Shown piece after piece: positions 1,378 to 38,452 of a DNA stretch of 38,759 nt; position 1 is the first letter of the stretch, and every line of letters starts with the position of its first letter. Below the pieces are notes generated by a model. That model saw only the letters and a program-made list of their open reading frames with translations. It was not told the DNA's origin and did not search any database. The stretch is from positions 1 through 38,759 of IMG/VR virus record IMGVR_UViG_3300046167_000577. One strand, written 5' to 3'. This stretch comes from a virus. Position numbers and translations under genes: made by a program.

Positions 1378-3328
1378 ATTATACAAACCTACCGAGCCAC
1401 AGAAGGACTTTCATAGGCTCGTACACGAGGACAAACCTTTTATCTCTACGCTCGTTGCAGGTCGTCAGACAGGTAAGACCTTCTATATGCAGAATGATGC
1501 TGTTATGAGGGCTCTAAACAACCCTAAGCACAGAATGTTTTGGGTAATGCCCATCCAAGACCAATCTAATAAAGTGATGAAGCACATAGAGGAGATGTTT
1601 AGCGGACATCAAGAGGTTTGGGATAAAATAATAAAAAGGTTTGATAGGAAGCACAATGAGATTTATTTTTACAACGGTAGTTTTATTAAGTTCCGTTCCG
1701 CTGATAGTGGAGATAATCTTCGTGGTGCTACGCTTGACTTTATATATTTGGACGAGGCAGCGTATATGAAGTTAGACTTTATCAACGAGGTGCTTCTACC
1801 GATGGTTACAAGAACAGGAGGAAGGGTGTGTGCATCCTCTACCTTCAATGGGCCTAATTGGTTCTTTGATTGGTACAAGGATGGACAGATAGAGAGCAAT
1901 TGGGAGCAGATAAAGAGCATAAAGAGAACATACCTTGACCTTAACGATGAGGGTGTCTCTAAGACCGTCTTAGGCATTAAGAAGAGTATGACCAAGGCTC
2001 AGTTCGACCAAGAGTTTTTGTGTAAGCCTGTGTCTGCAAATGCGTTGTTTAGCAATGTGGAAGAGGCTATCGTTCAAGATATGGACACAATGTGTGATAG
2101 GGTTTATATTGGGATGGATATTGGTGTTGCCCAAGATTATACTGTGCTTACAGCAATGAGTGAGGACTATAGGGTTATAGACATAGACCGATTCAACTAC
2201 AAGGAAGAGGGTATGGACTACGAAGAGTTCAAGGAACGCATAAAAGCGTTCTACCTAAAACACGACAAGCTGTTAGCTGCCGCCTACTTTGAGGTAAATA
2301 ACAACGACCTATTGTTTGACGACTTGACTGATGACGAGAGGCTTTACAAGCTGATACCGTTTACCACCTCAGCACAAAGCAAGCCTGAGATAGTAAGGAA
2401 CTTAATCAAACTGTTTGAGGATAAGGTGATTAAGATACCGAATAACGAGGATATGGTGAAAGAGCTTTATGACTTTAGGAGTAAACGCAATGCCATAACA
2501 GGTAATTTACAATTTAGCAACACTGACGGTAAACACGATGACATCGTTATGAGCTTGGCTATCTGTGCGTACTGTGCAGTAGAAGAGCAGGACGGTGGCG
2601 ATAACCTACTTTTTATGATAACATTTAGGCAACACCTTGACATTAGCAAATACGCTGAGAAAGAGGGAGGTATAATAGAATACATAGGCAAGTTAGAGGC
2701 TTCGGAAAGGGTTGGTGTAACAAGAAGTATAAAGGAGACTTACCCACTAAAAGAACCCTTAACTAACCACTACGAGGCTCTTGACAACTTTAAATGTCAC
2801 TTTAGGGTAAGCGACCTTGTACTCGGTCAGTTTATAATGATTGAGCAGATTATCACAGGCAAGACCAAGTACCCTACAGAAGCGGAAAACGACTTTGCCT
2901 TAGCGCAACTTCTTATGCGACCTAACAACCATAGTGTGTTTGATAACAATAATGAGAAGGTAGAGGCTACAAATAGCAAAGCTATACTAAACACCGATGT
3001 AAAGGAAGTGTACTCCGTCCTACACAACTTCCTAAAAGACAGAGAGTTCGTATTGTTCAATCAGTTCAAGGGAGTGTTCTATGAGGTTCCTGACGAGGAC
3101 GATGAGTTTGAGCAGACGGAAGAAGACAAGCGTGGGGAGGCTCTATTCCAACAGCAGTGGTATTGGTACTCAATGGTGCGTATGTTGGCTAAGGAAGATA
3201 TAACCAAGTACGATGAGATATATATGCTTAATATGGGAACGGTGATGCCTGAGATGAGCTTTTTAGCGCAGAAAAGCAAGATAGAAGGGGCAAGACAGCG
3301 ACAGTCTGAGGCTATGCGTAAATTGTAA
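1367..3328 (+). CDS. terL: Terminase large subunit fused to a C-terminal extra domain
   Basis: ATP-driven DNA packaging motor and nuclease. Visible motifs are Walker A AGRQTGKT (31-38), Walker B FIYLDE (125-130), coupling motif SSTF (157-160), and an RNase H-like nuclease with D251 (YIGMDIG), E309 and the D391-D392 pair (HDDIVMSL). A normal TerL would end near residue 410-430. Here the frame continues to 653 with about 235 residues of unrelated sequence, including DLVLGQFIMIEQIITGKTKY (about 484-503) and a region ending WYWYSMVRMLAKEDITKYDE. That tail resembles proteins usually encoded separately near tail-assembly genes of flavobacterial phages (family impression only). A methionine at 417 (position 2615) could serve as an internal start. 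The stop codon lies within a TTGTAAATTA site. Confidence 0.93.
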   Translation: MQIKLYKPTEPQKDFHRLVHEDKPFISTLVAGRQTGKTFYMQNDAVMRALNNPKHRMFWVMPIQDQSNKVMKHIEEMFSGHQEVWDKIIKRFDRKHNEIYFYNGSFIKFRSADSGDNLRGATLDFIYLDEAAYMKLDFINEVLLPMVTRTGGRVCASSTFNGPNWFFDWYKDGQIESNWEQIKSIKRTYLDLNDEGVSKTVLGIKKSMTKAQFDQEFLCKPVSANALFSNVEEAIVQDMDTMCDRVYIGMDIGVAQDYTVLTAMSEDYRVIDIDRFNYKEEGMDYEEFKERIKAFYLKHDKLLAAAYFEVNNNDLLFDDLTDDERLYKLIPFTTSAQSKPEIVRNLIKLFEDKVIKIPNNEDMVKELYDFRSKRNAITGNLQFSNTDGKHDDIVMSLAICAYCAVEEQDGGDNLLFMITFRQHLDISKYAEKEGGIIEYIGKLEASERVGVTRSIKETYPLKEPLTNHYEALDNFKCHFRVSDLVLGQFIMIEQIITGKTKYPTEAENDFALAQLLMRPNNHSVFDNNNEKVEATNSKAILNTDVKEVYSVLHNFLKDREFVLFNQFKGVFYEVPDEDDEFEQTEEDKRGEALFQQQWYWYSMVRMLAKEDITKYDEIYMLNMGTVMPEMSFLAQKSKIEGARQRQSEAMRKL

Positions 3329-3332
3329 ATTA
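3323..3332 (+). promoter_or_regulatory. TTGTAAATTA late-boundary motif 1
   Basis: An exact copy whose TAA is the stop codon of the terminase gene. The next start codon (3345) follows 12 bases later. It may be a late promoter, an RNA processing site or a translation signal. Confidence 0.55.
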
Positions 3333-11312: not shown

Positions 11313-11322
11313 TTGTAAATTA
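11313..11322 (+). promoter_or_regulatory. TTGTAAATTA late-boundary motif 2
   Basis: An exact copy immediately after the tail gene stop and five bases before the next ATG (11328). Here it extends into a dyad, TTGTA-AATTAA-TACAA. If a transcript began just downstream it would be nearly leaderless. Confidence 0.55.
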
Positions 11323-11327
11323 ATACA

Positions 11328-12101
11328 ATGGCTACATACAACGACTATCCACAATCTGCTTCCAACAACGCTAAGAAAGTTCTTGAGTGGAAGAAGAAGT
11401 ACGGCTCAGAGGTTAAGGGAATGACTTCTGTGGGGTGGACTCGTGCAAACCAATTAGCATCAAAAAGAAAACTGTCCTATGAAACAATTGCTCGTATGGC
11501 TGCGTTTAATCGTCATCGTAAGAATGCTGCGGTTGACCCTAAGTATAAGGACACTCCTTGGAAAGATAGGGGTTATGTTGCTTGGCTTGGATGGGGAGGC
11601 ACGAGTGGTATCAATTGGGCGATTAGAAAAGCTGAATCTATACGAGAAGGACGAGTTAAGGCAAGTGCTACAATATCTGATGCTCCGTATGGCAATCGCA
11701 AAGCTAAGGATGATTACGCTACACAAGGCAAGGATGGCAGTATTAAGAAGTCTCCCAAAGCACCTAAGAGTGACACTCCTAACAAAAACCCTAAAGGCGT
11801 TGGAAAAGGTGGAAAGCTTTCTCCACAGATTATTAAGTCTATAAGCTCAAAGGTTAGTAAGCATAATGAGAAGTACCCTGATAAAAAGATTGGTAACGGA
11901 GCTGCAAAGCGTGTTGTCCTTCGTGGTATGGGTGCATACAATACATCCCACTCACCGAAAGTTACATCGCCTGCACAATGGGGACTCGCAAGACTAAACG
12001 CATTTTTATACTTAGTGAAGAACGGTAAGCCTTCTAACCCTAAGTACACACAAGATAACGACTTGTTACCAAGTTGGCATAAAAGAAGTAAAAATGGATA
12101 A
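11328..12101 (+). CDS. DUF5824-like virion or head morphogenesis protein
   Basis: A very basic 257-residue protein with two recognisable blocks. The N-terminal block has VGWTRANQLASKRKLS (35-50), TIARMAAFNRH and YVAWLGWGGTSGINWA (83-98), a module often found attached to phage head proteins. The C-terminal block has AAKRVVLRGMGAYNTSHSP (about 193-211) followed by QWGLARLNAFL, the DUF5824-type signature. A Lys/Pro/Gly-rich linker (about 135-165) joins them. It overlaps the protease gene by eight bases and is probably a minor capsid or head-assembly component; its reaction, if any, is unknown. Confidence 0.75.
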   Translation: MATYNDYPQSASNNAKKVLEWKKKYGSEVKGMTSVGWTRANQLASKRKLSYETIARMAAFNRHRKNAAVDPKYKDTPWKDRGYVAWLGWGGTSGINWAIRKAESIREGRVKASATISDAPYGNRKAKDDYATQGKDGSIKKSPKAPKSDTPNKNPKGVGKGGKLSPQIIKSISSKVSKHNEKYPDKKIGNGAAKRVVLRGMGAYNTSHSPKVTSPAQWGLARLNAFLYLVKNGKPSNPKYTQDNDLLPSWHKRSKNG

Positions 12102-13143
12102 ACTACCATTATTTGACATATCGTTAGAAGATATAGAACAAGGGATGTATAAAATCTCTCTTGTTGATAAGCCTGCTATTGAAGAAAATTTTATCTACTT
12201 CAATGAGGTTAAGAAAATTGAGATGTTTTCTAATGACGAAAAGAAAGAGGTTGTAGGGCCTATTATGATTCCTAACAAGGAAATCCTACGCCACAGTCCT
12301 GATATGGGTTACTACTATGTAAGGTTCACGCAAGATACTATTCGTGACATTATGTATAAGTATTCTAAGGAAGGGTTGTTTAACGCATTTGGTGTTAACC
12401 ACGCATACGATACTGATGATGTGGTAATGCTTGAGGTTTGGATGAAAGAGTCTGATAACGATAAGTCTAAGGACTATGGTTACGACCTTCCAAACGGAAC
12501 CGTATTCGTAAAGGCTAAAATTGAGTCTGACGAATTGTTTGCTGCAATTAAAGATGGAGAGATAAATGGTTTCTCTATTGAGATTAAGGCTGATATTAAA
12601 CCAACAAATAATAACGAACAGATGAATGAATTTGCTTTCGCTAAGGAACTTGGTAAATTAGAGGCTCAGTTTGAGACTATGATGAACAAGTACGAGGCAC
12701 GAATTGAGGCTTTGGAGAACGAGAACAACGGACTCCTTGAAGCTGTAACATCTTTTGAAGAAAAGTTTGGTGGCGTTTCTGATTTAAAGGACGCTATTGA
12801 AAAAATTCAAAAGCACATTGAATCTATGGGTGCTTCTCAAGAAGATGAGAAGATGGCTGAAGAAGACAATGACGAGAAGGAAGAAAAGAAGGAAGAAGAA
12901 ACTTACGAAGCTACTGAAGCTACTGAACAAGTAGAAGAGGTAAAGGAAGAAGTTGCTGAAGAATTTGAGGCTACCTCTGAAGAGAACGAAGAAGTAACTA
13001 ACGAAGCTGAGGTTGAGGAGCAATTCGCTGCTGAGCAAAAGGCTGAGGAAGTTGAAGAAACAGTAGAAAACAAAACTGTAGAGTTTAGTGGAATCACTCC
13101 TGAAAAGGTTGATTTGATTAATAACTTCTTCAATCGTAAGTAA
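12094..13143 (+). CDS. XkdF-like prohead protease with scaffold tail
   Basis: The N-terminal 170 residues match the XkdF-like family: YKISLVDKPAIEENFIYF (19-36), VVGPIMIPNKEILR (53-66), NHAYD with H103, PNGTVFVKAKI, and INGFSIE with S161. H103 and S161 are candidates for the His/Ser of a herpesvirus-type prohead protease. From about 175 on the protein is a coiled coil that becomes extremely Glu-rich (about 245-330), as in scaffold domains fused to the protease, ending in a short hydrophobic tail (PEKVDLINNFFNRK) that may bind capsid. It is next to the major capsid gene, as expected. Confidence 0.8.
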   Translation: MDKLPLFDISLEDIEQGMYKISLVDKPAIEENFIYFNEVKKIEMFSNDEKKEVVGPIMIPNKEILRHSPDMGYYYVRFTQDTIRDIMYKYSKEGLFNAFGVNHAYDTDDVVMLEVWMKESDNDKSKDYGYDLPNGTVFVKAKIESDELFAAIKDGEINGFSIEIKADIKPTNNNEQMNEFAFAKELGKLEAQFETMMNKYEARIEALENENNGLLEAVTSFEEKFGGVSDLKDAIEKIQKHIESMGASQEDEKMAEEDNDEKEEKKEEETYEATEATEQVEEVKEEVAEEFEATSEENEEVTNEAEVEEQFAAEQKAEEVEETVENKTVEFSGITPEKVDLINNFFNRK

Positions 13144-13146
13144 TTA

Positions 13147-13156
13147 TTGTAAATTA
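13147..13156 (+). promoter_or_regulatory. TTGTAAATTA late-boundary motif 3
   Basis: An exact copy three bases after the protease stop codon and 32 bases before the capsid start. The extra spacing leaves room for an A-rich leader, which would suit the most highly expressed gene of the phage. Confidence 0.55.
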
Positions 13157-13188: not shown

Positions 13189-14085
13189 ATGAGTTTAACT
13201 ATCTCTTCTTTACCATACGGTGACCGTAGACCTAATTTGTTTATCGACACTATGGTAAAATCAGCGGCTGTACTTAACCGCTTTCGTTTAATTGACGGTG
13301 TTAAAGCTAAGGTTAATGTACCTATCTTTGACGCTTCTTTGTCATTCGGCAACGACCTTTGTGTATTTGATTCAGCTTCTTCTGCCTCTGTAGGTGAGAA
13401 AGAAATGACTGTTGAAACATACAAGTGGTCTTTCCTTAACTGTAAAGATGCTCTTGAGGCTTCTTACCGTGGTCTTTTATTGAAGAAAGGACAACACAAC
13501 CCTGAAACTATGGACGCTGAGTTCAAGGATTGGGTATTTGACCACTTCGCTAAATTAGCTGCTCAACAAGCTCTTAACCTTGCAGGTACTGAGTTGACTA
13601 CTGAGTTGGCTGCTGATGGTGATGTAAACGACTTTGACACTAACCAAGCTACTTTGGATAGCTCAAACATCCTTGCTGCTTTAGAAGGTGCTTACGGTGC
13701 TATGAGTGATGTTATGTTGTCTGCTGTTTATGGTGACGCTGACCGTGACTTTAAACCTGCTATCTTCTTAGGTACTGCTGCTATGCAAGCTTACCAAATC
13801 GCTATCGCAGGTCTATACACAACTACTCCTCAAGGTGTTGTTGAAGGAAGCATCCCTGCTTACTACGGAATGGAAGTTGTACACTTCTCTTCTTTACCTG
13901 CTAACGAGATTTTAATCTCTGCGCCTCAGAACATTGTTATGTTGACTGACGACTACAACGATGTTAAGGCAATTGATATGAAGTACGAAGCTGAGCTTTC
14001 TTCTGACAAGATTTGGGGACAGTTCAAGTTAGGTTTCTCTTACCTTAAAGGTGAAGAAATCGTTTACGCTAAGGACTTCGCTTAA
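13189..14085 (+). CDS. Major capsid protein
   Basis: A 298-residue protein, probably of the HK97 fold, that builds the shell. Evidence is its position directly after the protease/scaffold gene, its size, and a layout seen in flavobacterial phage capsids: N-terminal SLPYGDRRPNLFIDTMVK, a long central helix region (HFAKLAAQQALNLAGTEL) and a C-terminal domain with PAYYGMEVVHFSSLPANEIL. Codon use is markedly biased to GCT, GAC, AAC, CTT and GGT, more so than in neighbours, consistent with very high expression. It has a long A-rich leader (AACAAAAACTAAATAAA) and a GC-rich hairpin after the stop. Confidence 0.85.
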   Translation: MSLTISSLPYGDRRPNLFIDTMVKSAAVLNRFRLIDGVKAKVNVPIFDASLSFGNDLCVFDSASSASVGEKEMTVETYKWSFLNCKDALEASYRGLLLKKGQHNPETMDAEFKDWVFDHFAKLAAQQALNLAGTELTTELAADGDVNDFDTNQATLDSSNILAALEGAYGAMSDVMLSAVYGDADRDFKPAIFLGTAAMQAYQIAIAGLYTTTPQGVVEGSIPAYYGMEVVHFSSLPANEILISAPQNIVMLTDDYNDVKAIDMKYEAELSSDKIWGQFKLGFSYLKGEEIVYAKDFA

Positions 14086-14100
14086 TTAAATTAACCTAAC

Positions 14101-14120
14101 GGGAGGGCTTCGGCTCTCCC
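14101..14120 (+). terminator. Stem-loop with TTCG tetraloop after the capsid gene
   Basis: GGGAGGGC-TTCG-GCTCTCCC forms an eight-pair stem (one G-U) with a very stable UUCG loop. There is no T-run behind it, so it may be a partial terminator or an mRNA-end stabiliser that raises capsid yield rather than a full stop. The stem sequence GGGAG/CTCCC recurs in the hairpins at 14695 and 22399. Confidence 0.7.
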
Positions 14121-14138
14121 TATAATAAATTATAACAA

Positions 14139-14669
14139 ATGGCTTGTAATGTAACTTTAACAGGTATCGCTTACGACTGTAACGACTTAGGTATCGGTGG
14201 TATCGTAGAACTTCACATCGCTGAGAGAAGTAGTGTGACAGGTATCGTAACCGCTGACGCTGCTACTCGTCTCGTAACTGCACCTACAGGTTCAGCTTCG
14301 CCTATCACTTTAGGATTTAACCTAAAGGATGGTTTCTCTGTATTTAGTGAAGTTAAAACCGTAAACGCTGACGGAACATCTACTACTGTTCCTACTATCT
14401 CTGTTGAGCTTCCTAAGATGGACTCTGACAAGATTGCTTCCCTTAACCAAATGGCTGTGGGTGGTGCTGAATTAGTAGCTTTCGTTAAGACTGCCGCAGG
14501 TACTTTCCACATTAGTGGTTTAGACTACGGTCTATACGCATCTACTGTAGACGGAAACTCAGGAACAGGTCGTGCTGAAAAGAACCGCTTCCAACTAACC
14601 CTAACAGGTGAAGAGAACGGATTGTCTTACAGCGTGGCTGAGGCTGACTTCAATACATTGGTTGCTTAA
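14139..14669 (+). CDS. Putative major tail tube or virion protein, paralogue A
   Basis: A 176-residue beta-rich protein with capsid-like codon bias, hence probably abundant in the virion. It begins MACNVTLTGIAYDCNDLGIG and is clearly related in layout to the next gene: both have an N-terminal Cys-rich opening, a DG(F/V)xxFSE segment, a P(K/A)xDS segment and a GLxxGL-type C-terminal part. Tail tube protein is the most likely role; a decoration protein is the alternative. The leader TAATAAATTATAACAA resembles the late-boundary motif. Confidence 0.6.
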   Translation: MACNVTLTGIAYDCNDLGIGGIVELHIAERSSVTGIVTADAATRLVTAPTGSASPITLGFNLKDGFSVFSEVKTVNADGTSTTVPTISVELPKMDSDKIASLNQMAVGGAELVAFVKTAAGTFHISGLDYGLYASTVDGNSGTGRAEKNRFQLTLTGEENGLSYSVAEADFNTLVA

Positions 14670-14678
14670 TAGCAATTC

Positions 14679-14688
14679 TTGTAAATTA
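14679..14688 (+). promoter_or_regulatory. TTGTAAATTA late-boundary motif 4
   Basis: An exact copy, extended to TTGTAAATTATAACAA. It lies between the stop of paralogue A and a strong terminator that starts seven bases further on. This placement argues against a simple promoter here. Confidence 0.5.
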
Positions 14689-14694
14689 TAACAA

Positions 14695-14725
14695 GGGGAG
14701 TGGAGAAATCCTCTCCCTTTTTTTT
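14695..14725 (+). terminator. Rho-independent terminator between the tail-tube paralogues
   Basis: GGGGAG, mismatch, GGA, GAAA loop, TCC, mismatch, CTCCC, followed by eight T bases. This is the clearest intrinsic terminator of the rightward half and should lower expression of paralogue B relative to A. Confidence 0.85.
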
Positions 14726-17866: not shown

Positions 17867-18211
17867 ATGAAGAGACTTAAAAACAACACCCTAAACACCT
17901 TATCTTTTGTTAAGCTAAGTTCTTTTGTAACAAATAGTTTTGACATCACATTAGAAAAGGTAGTGGGTAATGAAACACTAAGTCTTACGAGCCTAACAGA
18001 TAGTGGTAACTTAGCACCCTGCAAGGACTTTATATCTATATCTATAGACTTAGTATCGGTAGGTAATGTCTTGAATGATGGTGGTGAATACATACTCACA
18101 TTGAGCAATGATGGTAACTCATACACATACTTGACTATCGTTGATGACTACCAAGAAGTGCAAGGTAGCGGTGGTATATATGCAGACACAGTTAGGTTCA
18201 CAGACTTGTAA
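17867..18211 (+). CDS. Small virion protein downstream of the spike
   Basis: A 114-residue Ser/Thr-rich beta-type protein with GGEYILTLSND and VDDYQEVQGSGG in its C-terminal half, reminiscent of short tail-tip or adaptor proteins. Its stop codon TAA is inside a TTGTAAATTA motif, and the portal gene starts 11 bases later. Function unknown. Confidence 0.55.
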   Translation: MKRLKNNTLNTLSFVKLSSFVTNSFDITLEKVVGNETLSLTSLTDSGNLAPCKDFISISIDLVSVGNVLNDGGEYILTLSNDGNSYTYLTIVDDYQEVQGSGGIYADTVRFTDL

Positions 18212-18215
18212 ATTA
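18206..18215 (+). promoter_or_regulatory. TTGTAAATTA late-boundary motif 5
   Basis: An exact copy containing the stop codon of the preceding gene and lying six bases before the portal ATG (18222). Confidence 0.55.
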
Positions 18216-18221
18216 TAGTAT

Positions 18222-19463
18222 ATGGGATTAATTAAGAACATAACAGAATACTTTGCTTCTAACACTTATGTGCAAGCTACAGAGAACAGCATTGCTACTA
18301 ACGAGTTAGAGAACTCTATTGACGACCTTAACGGACGCTATAAGTTAGGACACACCACATTAGGTGACTACATCAAGTTTGGTGTTAATGACGACTTTCC
18401 TGTAATCCTTGAGAAGATGTTAAGACAATCTCCTGTACACAGTGGTATCTTAACAAAGAAGGCTAAGATGGTTGTCGGTAACGACATTGGCTACTCTACA
18501 GATTTCGCAAGCACTAACAAGGCTAAGGCTGAGGTTAGAGCGTTTGTCAATCATTGTGGCGGTAACAACAAGGGTTTATACGAAGTTCTTACTCACGCAG
18601 CTTTCCAATACGAACACAAGGGAGCTTTAGCTTTCTATGTGCGTTGGAACAAAGGTCGTACAAAGATACTTGAATTTAAGTCTTTAGACCCTAAAGGAGT
18701 GCGTGTAGGAGAGCCAAATGCTAAGGGTGAGGTAACACACTACATCGTGCGTAGAACCTTCGGCTATGGGGCTAATTCTGTACAGCATAACGAGCCTCGT
18801 AAGATTAAGGCTTTTAACAAGTTTGACAAGTCGGGAACAGAAGCAATACTTTATGTAGCTAACCCTTATAGTGGCAACCCATACTACGGAGTGCCTAACT
18901 ACATATCAGCTTTCCATTACATAGCTTCTGACTTTAGCTTTGGTAAACACATTAAAAACAGCGCAGAGAACGGATTTACTCCTAAAGTAATAGCTACCTT
19001 TACAGGTAGAAATATGAGTAACGAGCAGAAGCGTGAAGAGTACAATAAGTTTAAAGATTCTTTCACAGGACCTGAAGGCGATAACTTTATGGTTTCTTGG
19101 GTAAAGAAGGTAGAAGACGCTCCCAAGTTTGACACCTTAGATGTTGCTAACTTAGACAAGACTGTAGATGTGTTGTCAAGACTTAACGATGCAAAGATAC
19201 TTACTGCACACAATGTAACATCACCAACATTATTCGGTGTTATGGTAAGCGGTAAGCTCGGAGGTACAGGTAACGAATTGGTTACAGCGTATCAGATATT
19301 TAGAGCTACTGAAACTCTTCCTAACAGAGAGATTCTTTTAGACTCAGTAAACAGAGTGTTCGCTACCGTAGGGTACGATGCTATGAACCTTTCAGTAGTT
19401 GAGGAAGACATCAACTTAGAAAGTATTAAAGGTGCTAATACAACAGACATAAGCAATGGTTGA
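18222..19463 (+). CDS. Portal protein
   Basis: Dodecameric ring at the capsid vertex through which DNA is packaged. The 413-residue protein has typical portal features: LRQSPVHSGILTKKAKMVVG (about 67-86), the stretch EFKSLDPKGVRVGEPN, NPYYGVPNYISAFHYI (about 222-237) followed by a long helix, and the crown/stem-like C-terminal part with VTSPTLFGVMVSGKLGGTGNE (about 330-350). It overlaps the connector gene by eight bases. Finding the portal here, 15 kb after the terminase and behind the spike gene, is an uncommon order. Confidence 0.85.
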   Translation: MGLIKNITEYFASNTYVQATENSIATNELENSIDDLNGRYKLGHTTLGDYIKFGVNDDFPVILEKMLRQSPVHSGILTKKAKMVVGNDIGYSTDFASTNKAKAEVRAFVNHCGGNNKGLYEVLTHAAFQYEHKGALAFYVRWNKGRTKILEFKSLDPKGVRVGEPNAKGEVTHYIVRRTFGYGANSVQHNEPRKIKAFNKFDKSGTEAILYVANPYSGNPYYGVPNYISAFHYIASDFSFGKHIKNSAENGFTPKVIATFTGRNMSNEQKREEYNKFKDSFTGPEGDNFMVSWVKKVEDAPKFDTLDVANLDKTVDVLSRLNDAKILTAHNVTSPTLFGVMVSGKLGGTGNELVTAYQIFRATETLPNREILLDSVNRVFATVGYDAMNLSVVEEDINLESIKGANTTDISNG

Positions 19464-22382: not shown

Positions 22383-22392
22383 TTGTAAATTA
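22383..22392 (+). promoter_or_regulatory. TTGTAAATTA late-boundary motif 6
   Basis: An exact copy starting at the base after the fibre gene stop codon, followed by the stem-loop at 22399-22443 and then the GAF-like gene at 22465. Confidence 0.5.
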
Positions 22393-22398
22393 CAGTAG

Positions 22399-22443
22399 GG
22401 GAGATTGAAATGTTCTGATACAAAATGAGCAGTTTAGTCTCCC
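22399..22443 (+). terminator. Stem-loop before the GAF-like gene
   Basis: Arms GGGAGATTGAA (22399-22409) and TTTAGTCTCCC (22433-22443) give 11 pairs including two G-U, with a 23-base loop. There is no clear T-run. It shares the GGGAG/CTCCC core with the hairpins at 14101 and 14695. It may be an attenuator or processing site. Confidence 0.5.
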
Positions 22444-22464
22444 TTGCTAAACAACTAAAATATA

Positions 22465-23094: not shown

Positions 23095-23120
23095 AAGAGA
23101 GGGCTATTGCCCCCTCTTAT
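23095..23120. terminator. Two-way terminator between the converging operons
   Basis: AGAGGG-loop-CCCTCT stem (23096-23118 region). Read leftward it is followed by TTTT; read rightward by TTATTCTT. It separates the late rightward operon from the leftward lysis end. A second perfect hairpin, GGTGC-AATATC-GCACC (23153-23168), lies just behind the holin stop codon and would add to termination of the leftward transcript. Confidence 0.75.
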
Positions 23121-23672: not shown

Positions 23673-24110
23673 TTAGTTTTTAATTAAAAATTCATATTCT
23701 TTCTGTACATCAAAGCTCGGACAAGCCTTGCCTTTGTTAAATTCATTGTGTCCGTATATCGTAGCTATAGGGTACATATCTAATAGTGCAGACAATAGGT
23801 TAGTTAGTGCGGTATCTTGCTCAGGAGTTCTCGTGTCTTTAGGACTCATAAACCTATCACATCCTCCTACATAAACAATCCCTATACTGCCTACATTGTT
23901 TCCCTTAGTGTGTGCGCCTACCATTTGTACGCTACGACCTTCTTCTATCGTTCCGTCAAGTTTAACAACATAGTGATAACCAATGTTTCTCCAACCTTGA
24001 TTCTTATGCCATCTTGCGATTTCCTCTGCGTCTACATCTCTACCTTCAGGGGTAGCTGTGCAATGCAGTATAATCTTGGTAATCTGTCTTACTGATTTAG
24101 TTAAGTTCAT
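23673..24110 (-). CDS. N-acetylmuramoyl-L-alanine amidase (endolysin)
   Basis: Cuts the bond between muramic acid and the peptide stem of peptidoglycan. The 145-residue protein is a complete T7-lysozyme-type amidase: zinc ligands H16, H121 and C130, catalytic Y45 and K128, within KIILHCTATPEGRDVD, GYHYVV, GAHTKGNNVGSIGI and IYGHNEFNKGKACPSFD. Spacing of these residues is almost the same as in T7 lysozyme. There is no signal peptide, so it depends on the holin. Upstream lies a near-copy of the late motif (TTGTAAATTTA on this strand, about 24118-24128). Confidence 0.93.
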   Translation of the reverse strand: MNLTKSVRQITKIILHCTATPEGRDVDAEEIARWHKNQGWRNIGYHYVVKLDGTIEEGRSVQMVGAHTKGNNVGSIGIVYVGGCDRFMSPKDTRTPEQDTALTNLLSALLDMYPIATIYGHNEFNKGKACPSFDVQKEYEFLIKN

Positions 24111-24144
24111 AGGTAATTAAATTTACAATATTTACATTACTAAT

Positions 24145-24375
24145 TTACGATACGATAGCTCTGCTATAAAAGCTGTATATATAGCGTATAAAGGGACTAA
24201 CTCCTAAGTAAGCATACAAGAGTAGGCTACACCAAAAAGAAAGGCACAGAACGCAAGAGAATGGCTTATAAGGGAACTTCTCTATGAACCAAGCATAAGG
24301 CTCAAACAAGAACAAGAACGCAAACATAAGTCCTACTGAGGATATTAACATCCAATCGTTATAAATTTCAATCAT
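24145..24375 (-). CDS. Small membrane protein with CxxC/FWC motif
   Basis: 76 residues from the ATG at 24375, which overlaps the upstream stop as ATGA; a longer frame from 24414 would overlap the upstream gene further and is less likely. Membrane spans at about 8-25 and 44-60 flank PYKPFSCVLCLSFWCS with C41, C44 and C49. Such a C-x2-C-x2-FW pattern at a membrane edge is seen in small phage proteins near lysis genes. It may be an accessory holin or spanin-like factor; this is not proven. Confidence 0.6.
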   Translation of the reverse strand: MIEIYNDWMLISSVGLMFAFLFLFEPYAWFIEKFPYKPFSCVLCLSFWCSLLLYAYLGVSPFIRYIYSFYSRAIVS

Positions 24376-24611
24376 AATTTTATCTTTGATATTTCGTTTG
24401 TGGTTTCTATCCAAACCTTAGCACCGCAAGATAACGGTTTATCAGGTCTATACAAAACCCTACAAGCCTCTAATCCGTCTTGTCCATAAACTATTACTTC
24501 GTTAGCATAGTCGTTAGACTTGTATGTCTTGCAAGTTATAACAGGGTTTCTCTCTCCTTTCTTTGAGTTTGACCTAATTATATGTTGGTTTATATGAATA
24601 ATAGTCTTCAT
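24372..24611 (-). CDS. Conserved hypothetical protein (79 aa)
   Basis: A short basic beta-type protein: INQHIIRSNSKKGERNPVIT near the start, VIVYGQDGLEACRVLYRP in the middle, and PLSCGAKVWIETTNE near the end. I have a general memory of such proteins in mobile DNA of Bacteroidetes but cannot assign a function. It overlaps both neighbours by four bases (ATGA), so it is part of a coupled cluster between the sigma-like gene and the lysis genes. Confidence 0.65.
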   Translation of the reverse strand: MKTIIHINQHIIRSNSKKGERNPVITCKTYKSNDYANEVIVYGQDGLEACRVLYRPDKPLSCGAKVWIETTNEISKIKL

Positions 24612-25021
24612 AATCTTTCGCTTAAATAAGAATCTTTAATATACCTTTTGAGTTTTGTAACCCTTTCTCCGTTCTCTATACACACTACATAACCTTTTAT
24701 ATTATGACCATACACATCACTGTGGTTAAGGGCTACTATGCGATTTGTCATTGTACTATATATAATACTTATAACAAGGTTAGCAGCACTCTTGCCCTCT
24801 ACATAGTAATACAAGAACTTCTCACAAGTACGCATCACAGCAGCATCTATCAGAGCTTGCTTCAGTTCTTCGTTACCATTAGTTACAAAGGCTGAGCCTG
24901 CTATTTCTATAGACCTTTGAAGGATAAAAGAGCCAAGTGGCTCTGTTAATCTTCCTTGCTCAAGTGATAGTATAGCTTCACGCTCTATCAACTGCTTATC
25001 GTATCTCGTATTCTTCTTCAA
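24608..25021 (-). CDS. Possible T4 gp55-like late sigma factor
   Basis: A 137-residue helical protein. The stretch LTEPLGSFILQRSIEIAGSA (about 25-44), LKQALIDAAVMRTCEKFLYY (about 53-72), then EGKSAANLVISIIYSTMTNRI (75-95) follows the order of T4 gp55: an N-terminal helix, a DAI/DAA helix, an Fxxxx-K-NxxAY-like turn and an xxSxxxNRI helix, equivalent to sigma region 2. Region 4 is absent, as in gp55. If right, it would redirect host RNA polymerase to late promoters. The match is by pattern only and needs profile comparison. It overlaps neighbours at both ends. Confidence 0.45.
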   Translation of the reverse strand: MKKNTRYDKQLIEREAILSLEQGRLTEPLGSFILQRSIEIAGSAFVTNGNEELKQALIDAAVMRTCEKFLYYYVEGKSAANLVISIIYSTMTNRIVALNHSDVYGHNIKGYVVCIENGERVTKLKRYIKDSYLSERL

Positions 25022-27025: not shown

Positions 27026-28003
27026 TTATTCTATTCTTAATTGTTCACCACTCTGTGGTTCTGACTTAACTACTTCAGCGTTTGGGTCTTCATAAGCGTA
27101 GCACTTATTACCTCTATCGTCTACCTCGTAGTATCTGTTTTTCATCTTATCGTAGTAAAGGGTAACAGTACCGAGAGAACCTACTATCTTTGGTTTAGCC
27201 TTGACAATAGTAATCTCTACTTGGTTAGGCTCGTAAGGAATACCGTTACCATCCTCTAATCCGTAAGGACATCTCCATACATTGACTACCATCATACCTT
27301 TACGACTCCATTGCATACCACCTGCTATGTCATTCATAGTAGGCTTATCTACATAAGGCACTCCGTTCTTGTACTTAGCTTGTTGGTGCTTAGTGTGTAC
27401 GGTTACGATAGTGTGAAAGTCTTTCTCAGCACTATGCTTACGAACCTTTGTTAGCACTTGACCGATAGCGATGTCATCACGAACACCTGAAGATACATCA
27501 GTCTTAATCTCTGTGAACGGGTCAATCATACACCCGTCAATCTTGATATTGTTATCCTCTTCAATAGTATCAATAGCCGTATAGAAACCTTCTACTGAAA
27601 GGTCTTGCAGACCGCTATCAATAATGTAGAAATGCTCATTAACAAACTTAATGGCTCTTGATGTTTCCTCATCAGTAGCTGTCAAGTGGTCGTTGATTAG
27701 GAAAGGCTTACGCAAGTACACCCATAGTAGCTCGGCAAACACTTCTGTTGGTGAGCCTGTTTCGGGAGTGTACACTGCCCACTTCCAACCGCTATACTCA
27801 GCAAGGTTCATCATTAGCTCAAAACCAAACTGTGACTTACCTTGATGCGCTCCTGCGTAGATATAGGTAGTGCTACCTTTCTTTACAGAATACTTGTTAA
27901 AGAGAGAGCTGAACCCTGTCCAAGCTCCCTTCTTAACACCTTCCTTTCTTAGAGTAGATAGTGAGTCTACTACATCTTCTGCTTTGTAAATTATGTTTCT
28001 CAT
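27026..28003 (-). CDS. DnaB-like replicative helicase (SF4 ATPase)
   Basis: A 325-residue RecA-type ATPase without the DnaB N-terminal primase-binding domain. Motifs: Walker A AGAHQGKS (50-57), a post-A segment WAVYTPETGSPTEVF, Walker B IDGCMIDP with D161, and the H3 region TIVTVHTKHQQ (H203) followed by AGGMQWSRKGMMVVNVWR. The order and length fit phage replicative helicases of the DnaB/gp41 type. The loader and primase are not obvious in the window, so host proteins or the DnaA-like genes may supply recruitment. Confidence 0.85.
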   Translation of the reverse strand: MRNIIYKAEDVVDSLSTLRKEGVKKGAWTGFSSLFNKYSVKKGSTTYIYAGAHQGKSQFGFELMMNLAEYSGWKWAVYTPETGSPTEVFAELLWVYLRKPFLINDHLTATDEETSRAIKFVNEHFYIIDSGLQDLSVEGFYTAIDTIEEDNNIKIDGCMIDPFTEIKTDVSSGVRDDIAIGQVLTKVRKHSAEKDFHTIVTVHTKHQQAKYKNGVPYVDKPTMNDIAGGMQWSRKGMMVVNVWRCPYGLEDGNGIPYEPNQVEITIVKAKPKIVGSLGTVTLYYDKMKNRYYEVDDRGNKCYAYEDPNAEVVKSEPQSGEQLRIE

Positions 28004-31005: not shown

Positions 31006-31488
31006 TTACTCTTGGTTATTTACGCTTTCAAGTGAGATATTATTGATTACTTTATTCAGCACATCAAGTTTACTCTCAGGTGATAGCATAGTGGTGTTTA
31101 GGTGGTTGTTGATTGTCTCTACTAATTCAGATTTTGTTTCCTCGCTGTTTGGCATCACTTCCGTAAAGATTTTTGCCCAATTATTTATCTCCTGAATAAA
31201 TAGATTATCTTTCCATTCTAAGGCGTTATCTACTACCCTTGCGCTATGCAATATGGTAGCGTGGTTACACTCCATTATATTCCCTAAGTGAGAACAGGTC
31301 TGTCGATACTTCTTATAGAGTATGTAAGAAAGACATTGCCTCACTATAATCACGCTCTCTCTCCTTGTCTTTTCCAACGGATTCAAGTTGTGTACTGATT
31401 CGTAACTTGCTACTAACCGCATCAATGTATTCTTGCTGATTATTTGGCTTCGTAACATTCTCTTCTTTGGTGTGTAGTTCCCTGACAT
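31006..31488 (-). CDS. DnaA domain IV-like DNA-binding protein, copy 2
   Basis: 160 residues. Residues 41-90 read TRRESVIIVRQCLSYILYKK, then CSHLGNIMECNHATILHSAR and VVDN. This is a close pattern match to the DnaA box-binding domain, including the NHATILHS segment, which is nearly the canonical DnaA signature. As with copy 1, there is no AAA+ ATPase. The first 59 codons overlap, in another frame, the end of the sigma-like gene by 176 bases. It may act as an origin-binding initiator or as a decoy for host DnaA. Confidence 0.75.
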   Translation of the reverse strand: MSGNYTPKKRMLRSQIISKNTLMRLVASYESVHNLNPLEKTRRESVIIVRQCLSYILYKKYRQTCSHLGNIMECNHATILHSARVVDNALEWKDNLFIQEINNWAKIFTEVMPNSEETKSELVETINNHLNTTMLSPESKLDVLNKVINNISLESVNNQE

Positions 31489-32026
31489 AATTTTTTACTT
31501 TTCTAATTGCTCTTCTTTCTGCTAAGTCTATTTTTCTATAACTGATTTCTAAATTGTCTGATAATTCCTTTTTCGTACTGTCTCCCAATACAAGCTCTGT
31601 AAAGCACTTTCTCTCTAAGTATGGTAGATTGGTATCAACAAACTGAGAAACCACTTCTATGAGGTTGTTATGCTGTCTGTCGTATGATACTAACGCTTGT
31701 TCGTACTTGCTAACTTTCTCTTCATCGCTCCCATAGGTAACTTGAGACTCACTATAAACCTCTAAGTTCTTTTCGTTAGCTGTCTTGCTGTAAGAGTTTA
31801 GAATACCATACCTAAAACAGCTCATTACCATAGCTGTCATCTCTGATTCATCTTTAAACTCTGTTTCTTTGTTCACTAAGCGCATTATGTTTAATGCAGA
31901 CTTGTGTAGTGCGGAATCTACGACATCAGCGTTATAGAACGAATAGCCGTAATACTTAGCACAGTAATGTAGAAACCTATTGTCTTTAGGAAACCACTTT
32001 CTTAAATCGCCTTCTGTTATCTTCAT
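31313..32026 (-). CDS. Sigma-factor-like protein with region 4 helix-turn-helix
   Basis: 237 residues. Residues about 30-85 form helices similar to sigma region 2 (ALNIMRLVNKETEFKDESEM, then MVMSCFRYGILNSYSK). Residues 134-180 fit sigma region 4: LPYLERKCFTELVLGDSTKK, then ELSDNLEISYRKIDLAERRA and IRKVKNY. The last 59 residues lie over the start of the DnaA-like gene in another frame and are low in complexity. It could be an early/middle transcription factor or a sigma-derived DNA-binding protein. The early leader repeat precedes its start. Confidence 0.55.
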   Translation of the reverse strand: MKITEGDLRKWFPKDNRFLHYCAKYYGYSFYNADVVDSALHKSALNIMRLVNKETEFKDESEMTAMVMSCFRYGILNSYSKTANEKNLEVYSESQVTYGSDEEKVSKYEQALVSYDRQHNNLIEVVSQFVDTNLPYLERKCFTELVLGDSTKKELSDNLEISYRKIDLAERRAIRKVKNYVRELHTKEENVTKPNNQQEYIDAVSSKLRISTQLESVGKDKERERDYSEAMSFLHTL

Positions 32027-38246: not shown

Positions 38247-38278
38247 CAAATGTAAGCAATAAATATTTAACCATCCAA
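38247..38278 (-). promoter_or_regulatory. Leftward promoter P2
   Basis: Minus strand TTGGAT (TTG at 38278-38276), 21-base spacer, TACATTTG (38254-38247), an exact TANNTTTG. It shares the TTGGAT box and spacer length with P3. An AT-rich AAAAGTTTTTTAAATAAA tract lies upstream. Confidence 0.8.
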
Positions 38279-38452
38279 ACATTTATTTAAAAAACTTTTA
38301 AAATAATTTATAATAGTTTGTAAATCAGTAAGTTAGACAGCAAAATAATTTTTACAGCACTGTGAAAGGTGTGTTATTGAGTGGTTATATAAAGGCAAGA
38401 GAGGGAATAGTCTACGCATCTTCACCTAATCGAAAAAAACTTTAAAAAACAT

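Follow-up and report, generated by a model that had tools for sequence, protein, structure and literature searches.

Results

A ten-nucleotide word recurs at late gene boundaries

The 38,759-nucleotide stretch of marine phage DNA analyzed here (the window) has a rightward half that carries virion genes, including terL, a capsid-type gene and a portal gene, and leftward genes that encode a lysis amidase, a helicase-like protein and two sigma-like proteins (Table 1). A strong terminator-like hairpin, found by a minus strand scan at positions 23095-23118, separates the rightward gene block from the leftward block that converges on it. Comparison of window positions 1-25000 with known phages by megablast gave no match. 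Searches of cellular genomes with terminase and portal profiles likewise returned nothing, and thus they supplied no prophage that would name the host. Because relatives of the helicase-like protein, the portal and the product of gene 12094-13143 are found in phages of Flavobacterium, Riemerella, Tenacibaculum and Nonlabens, the hosts of this phage group are probably members of the Flavobacteriia.

An earlier, sequence-only reading of this DNA had reported six exact copies of the word TTGTAAATTA at boundaries of rightward virion genes. All six coordinates are correct, each copy is indeed located at such a boundary, and the two copies that were said to supply a stop codon do so with TTGTAA, at 3323 (gene ending at 3328) and at 18206 (gene ending at 18211). 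When both strands are counted, the window holds eight exact copies compared to 0.35 expected from shuffles, and none of 100 shuffles reaches this number. The boundary zones, which make up approximately 2.5% of the rightward half, contain 6/6 of the plus-strand copies in that half. The two further copies reside at 2503-2512 (minus strand), inside terL, and at 27984-27993 (plus strand), antisense to the leftward helicase-like gene at its start. As relatives show no systematic recurrence of either copy, both probably occur by chance.

Table 1. Features of the window that bear on the proposed late promoters. Coordinates are those of the 38,759-nucleotide window.
Feature	Coordinates	Strand	Remarks
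Putative -10 element of a late promoter ahead of gene 3345	3323..3332	+	supplies terL stop codon; predicted start ~3337
Putative late promoter element before gene 11328	11313..11322	+	predicted start ~11327
Putative late promoter element before capsid-type gene 13189	13147..13156	+	predicted start ~13161
Capsid-type late gene	13189..14085	+	assigned by position; weak match to PHROG 11320, of unknown function
Putative late promoter element before paralogue B (14746)	14679..14688	+	followed immediately by terminator-like hairpin
Hairpin with foot at predicted +1 (14693)	14693..14720	+	T-run to ~14727; -16.2 kcal/mol, z -2.8
Putative late promoter element before portal gene 18222	18206..18215	+	supplies upstream stop codon; predicted start ~18220
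Portal protein gene	18222..19463	+	phrog_11226, 3e-22
Putative late promoter element before gene 22465	22383..22392	+	predicted start ~22397; few homologues
Strong hairpin beginning at about the predicted 5' end	22394..22448	+	-28.5 kcal/mol, z -7.1; no T-run
Lysis amidase gene, leftward late gene	23673..24110	-	
Leftward variant TTGTAAATTT	24119..24128	-	8 nt from amidase ATG; variants in many relatives
Second leftward near-copy TCGTAAATTA	24141..24150	-	overlaps 3' end of gene 24145-24414
gp55-like protein, proposed late sigma factor	24608..25021	-	sigma region 2 only, from predicted fold
Second sigma-like protein, ECF type	31313..32026	-	regions 2 and 4; early leftward region

The word is conserved in related phages

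Searches of IMG/VR with terL and portal yielded 122 related loci. When all 10-mers in the 75 nucleotides upstream of rightward genes were tallied, with none chosen in advance, TTGTAAATTA proved to be the commonest (141 of 959 regions), and it is absent from all 858 regions upstream of leftward genes. Gene boundaries hold 147 of the 151 distinct plus-strand copies in the relatives. Among 20 permuted 10-mers examined as a control, 19 have zero to two boundary copies, and the exceptional word, GTAAATTATT (11 boundary copies), is TTGTAAATTA shifted by two bases.

Exact copies precede most homologues of the genes concerned: 28/35 for gene 3345 (35/35 with at most one mismatch), 25/28 for gene 11328, 30/31 for the capsid-type gene, 16/22 for paralogue B and 48/56 for the portal, where the remaining eight carry TTGTAGATTA. 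The portal copy is kept even when the upstream gene has been replaced (L052 versus L051). Furthermore, the distance between the word and the start codon is conserved for each gene. It ranges in the relatives from a minimum of 5 nucleotides to approximately 70 depending on the gene, and is mostly 5 to 7 nucleotides at homologues of the portal and of gene 11328.

Near-copies had been proposed before the amidase and before paralogue A (about 14125), of which the first held up and the second did not. The leftward amidase bears TTGTAAATTT in the window and ATGTAAATTA or ATGTAGATTA in many relatives, in each case on its own strand, and because of this the word tracks late genes rather than a strand or a place. 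The near-copy ahead of paralogue A is not conserved, and we rejected it as a promoter element; across the relatives compared, this gene has no conserved word upstream. A terminator-like hairpin does lie ahead of paralogue A, 3' of the capsid-type gene, both in the window (14085-14139) and in relatives.

The form of the signal resembles that of T4-type late promoters

Five unrelated gene contexts, aligned on the word, exhibit no conserved -35 element. The same alignment reveals a weak preference for a purine and then an A, 5 and 6 nucleotides past the word. At near-leaderless genes this signal overlaps in part with the start codon, and the related contigs are not mutually independent, and so it is only supportive of a promoter.

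In T4, the late promoter TATAAATA spans -13 to -6, and in Aeh1 the late promoter CTAAATA begins at -12 and occurs alongside a diverged gp55 (PMC1524935). Both promoters have TAAAT at -11 to -7. TTGTAAATTA contains the same core, from which we assumed the T4 register, and this places a purine at +1 and an A at +2. The word differs from T4-type late promoters at two positions, -12 and -6. Aeh1 likewise departs from T4 at -12, where TTGTAAATTA has G, but TTGTAAATTA additionally has T replacing A at -6, and Aeh1 is a T4-like myovirus.

Promoters for the primary sigma factor of Flavobacterium (TTG ... TAnnTTTG) are of a different form, in that the late word has neither TTTG at -7 nor a -33 element. 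The primary-sigma pattern has two matches in the window, no more than chance predicts. One of these, TTTG-N21-TACATTTG at 38247-38279 (minus strand), is of the Bacteroidetes primary-sigma type and is located near the head of the leftward region, whose early genes possibly use promoters of this kind. A simple sigma-70 promoter scan of the window was not informative, an Rfam search gave no match, and among the papers listed by a literature search for the letters of the word (10 of 24), all of them unrelated, none describes TTGTAAATTA as a promoter.

Two phage proteins resemble sigma factors

The 137-amino-acid protein encoded at 24608-25021, which the sequence-only reading had put forward as a gp55-like candidate, belongs to a well conserved family (29 sequences aligned). 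Its AlphaFold model (pLDDT 83) has the fold of sigma region 2 and no region 4. Among solved structures, the best match to this model is T4 gp55 in an RNA polymerase open complex (7d7c_F; Foldseek probability 1.00, E 0.024; VIA Z 12.5), and the next VIA matches are sigma factors. The nearest viral model is a protein of Tenacibaculum phage pT24, followed by a ‘sigma factor for late transcription’. Sequence comparisons give weak signals: PHROG 12791 (‘sigma factor for late transcription’) is matched by 2 of the 29 homologues with a best E of 0.0069, and hhalign of the family with gp55 is in register with an E of 0.0024 but a probability of 12%. A PDB sequence search with the family profile found no relative, and a second scan for gp55-like proteins recovered close relatives only.

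The gp55-like gene is present in 58 of the 63 portal contigs that are long enough to show it. The five contigs where it is not detected include L119, which is a short fragment, and L130, where the structural genes run on past the portal, indicating that the early region lies off the piece.

A second sigma-like protein, encoded at 31313-32026, might instead read the word. Six of ten homologues of this protein match sigma region 4 (best 1.7e-8), the family matches sigma-H in the PDB (4e-5), and the fold matches are sigma factors, with ECF types prominent. Sigma factors that possess region 4 normally depend on a -35 element, yet no such element is conserved at the word. T4 late promoters, which are read by the region-2-only protein gp55, likewise have no -35 element (PMC7892883). 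Because the late word is of this same form, the region-2-only protein seems the better candidate, and we consider it unlikely that the ECF-type protein is the reader. Perhaps it serves as the sigma factor for middle genes.

A copy of the word within a small gene of relatives

Relatives of the phage carry a small leftward gene (NYQTCKLI...; for example L105, approximately position 13964, minus strand) upstream of the sigma gene, between a RusA-like gene and the homologue of gene 24996. This gene is absent from the window. Near its start it contains a leftward copy of TTGTAAATTA, which is the exception to the siting of the word before virion and lysis genes. The codons for Cys-Lys-Leu-Ile at this copy are nearly invariant (TGT 78/79, AAA 78/79, TTA 73/74, ATT 60/61), whereas the background use of TGT, AAA and TTA is.69,.48 and.29, and neighboring conserved codons of the same gene vary freely. 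Since synonymous variation is near zero in exactly the codons of the word, the word itself appears to be under selection within this gene. We had entertained the idea that the 27 leftward exact copies in the relatives are a coding coincidence of Cys-Lys-Leu, but rejected it on the basis of this codon test, which points to selection on the DNA. The simplest reading is that the internal copy would be a late promoter from which the sigma gene, and the lysis genes that lie past it, are transcribed, and through it the word may feed back on its own sigma gene. Late promoter copies are located inside genes in T4 as well.

Predicted leaders and hairpins

If transcription starts where the T4 register predicts, the leaders would be approximately 1 nucleotide for gene 11328, making its message near-leaderless, 2 for the portal gene, 4 for the amidase gene and 8 for gene 3345. 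The capsid-type gene would have an A-rich leader of approximately 28 nucleotides, and folding prediction indicates that this segment is unstructured. Leaders longer than 10 nucleotides are found on 87% of the predicted transcripts of F. johnsoniae (PMC6847099), and therefore late messages that are near-leaderless would be atypical of a host of this kind.

A possible parallel set of near-leaderless promoters is present in Nonlabens phage P12024S (NC_018271, L225). This cultured flavophage, the closest isolate that we found, has a portal distantly related to that of the window, encodes a protein with sigma region 2 (its gp33), and carries CGTTAATA exactly 4 nucleotides from the ATG at five genes (CGTTAATA-N4-ATG starts at 3031, 5412, 23961, 25201 and 26802), plus one near-copy at 179. 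In contrast to the window, its word is a different one and is accompanied by an A-rich element approximately 20 nucleotides upstream, and its sigma protein has no detectable sequence similarity to either of the two described above.

A terminator had been noted directly after the copy at 14679, and a terminator-like hairpin followed by a T-run is in fact present there. The hairpin is kept in relatives and the order of word and then hairpin is conserved, although a terminator that follows a promoter is an odd arrangement. The hairpin that follows the copy at 22383 has no T-run, which rules it out as a terminator. These two hairpins may halt transcripts that arrive from upstream, protect the 5' end of the message, or do both. 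The word together with a terminator-like hairpin is also found ahead of other genes (L085:6601, L098:4304 and L113:362), and so the combination appears to recur as a unit in relatives.

Discussion

The late-gene specificity of the word, the lack of a -35 element, the TAAAT core shared with known late promoters and start-codon distances that differ by gene all favor a promoter. We therefore consider it highly probable that TTGTAAATTA is a late promoter of the gp55 type, composed of a -10 element only and recognized by a T4-type sigma factor that the phage itself makes. The sequence-only reading had drawn the same comparison with T4 late promoters and had named the gene at 24608-25021, and our findings on late-gene specificity, the lack of a -35 element and TAAAT in the T4 register support it.

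We infer which protein reads the word, where transcription starts and how long the leaders are. The phage would make a small sigma factor with region 2 only (24608-25021), which would displace the host sigma factor on host RNA polymerase and recognize TTGTAAATTA without a -35 element, in the way that gp55 recognizes TATAAATA in T4. Transcription would then begin approximately 5 nucleotides past the word, on a purine and then an A, and the distance from the word to the start codon, fixed for each gene, would set the length of the leader. Messages started at 14679 and 22383 would bear a hairpin at their 5' terminus.

Two other roles, RNA processing and translation, had been left open earlier. 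If the word were a signal at which a long late transcript is cut, 5' ends would likewise be formed near start codons and hairpins. The location of the word just past stop codons (-6 to +11 nucleotides) in nearly all contexts is compatible with cleavage, as are the terminator that follows the copy at 14679 and the AU-rich single-stranded stretch, which suits an endonuclease. However, cleavage requires an unknown, specific nuclease, whereas the phage has a sigma region 2 protein. The word also lies within leftward coding sequence whose synonymous sites are constrained, and its core is shared with late promoters of the T4 type. Processing is thus the less likely explanation, and we regard it as quite improbable.

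A function as a ribosome-binding or other translation signal of late genes is disfavored more strongly. At the portal gene and gene 11328 the word is 5 to 6 nucleotides from the ATG, which resembles the spacing of a Shine-Dalgarno sequence, but elsewhere this distance extends to approximately 70 nucleotides, and the word is missing before the leftward genes, which use the same ribosomes. Moreover, it has none of the character of a Shine-Dalgarno sequence, being neither a purine-rich complement of the anti-Shine-Dalgarno sequence nor fixed in its spacing, and Bacteroidetes mRNAs naturally lack such sequences (PMC6847099). A translation signal is therefore very improbable. The notion that the word serves as a recombination linker or mosaic boundary kept for module exchange, which could account for different upstream genes being joined there to one and the same portal, is scarcely credible, given that strand bias, a start distance particular to each gene and selection within a coding gene call for a function in expression; linker behavior may be a by-product.

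The proposed gp55-type promoter shares with its T4 counterpart a -10-only element with TAAAT at -11 to -7, the lack of a -35 element, an association with late genes and a phage-encoded protein with sigma region 2 only, the last being predicted here from a model. The two systems differ in the word itself (TTGTAAATTA rather than TATAAATA) and in their setting, which here is a small (~38 kb) tailed flavophage. Late sigma factors of the gp55 type have gp33 and gp45 as partners and a C-terminal motif that binds the sliding clamp. No relative of gp33 or of a sliding clamp was found among the scanned window proteins, many of which are small and have no match of any kind. The spacing is also different: in T4 the gap from TATAAATA to the next start is typically 24 to 28 nucleotides, whereas near-leaderless spacing is predicted here.

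On a more tentative level, these phages might represent a minimal, clamp-free form of T4-type late transcription in small flavophages, wherein an ECF-type early sigma factor would be followed by a region-2-only late sigma factor. The latter would feed back on its own operon via a promoter hidden in a coding gene. Spacing alone would give rise to leaderless late mRNAs, an A-rich capsid leader and 5'-end hairpins, and would thereby set protein dosage. We can see this broader scheme as a possibility, though we would not put it at even chances.

To our knowledge, studies of late transcription of the T4 type have been confined almost entirely to T4-like phages. The possible novelty of the present system lies in a gp55-type late promoter in a new setting, an unusual spacing design and potential feedback on its own sigma factor. 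If our interpretation is true, a compact version, apparently lacking a clamp partner, operates in common marine flavophages and would show the core of the system. The promoter and its sigma factor could then be used as a compact pair for Bacteroidetes, and the near-leaderless late messages would provide a clear case for leader-free initiation by Bacteroidetes ribosomes.
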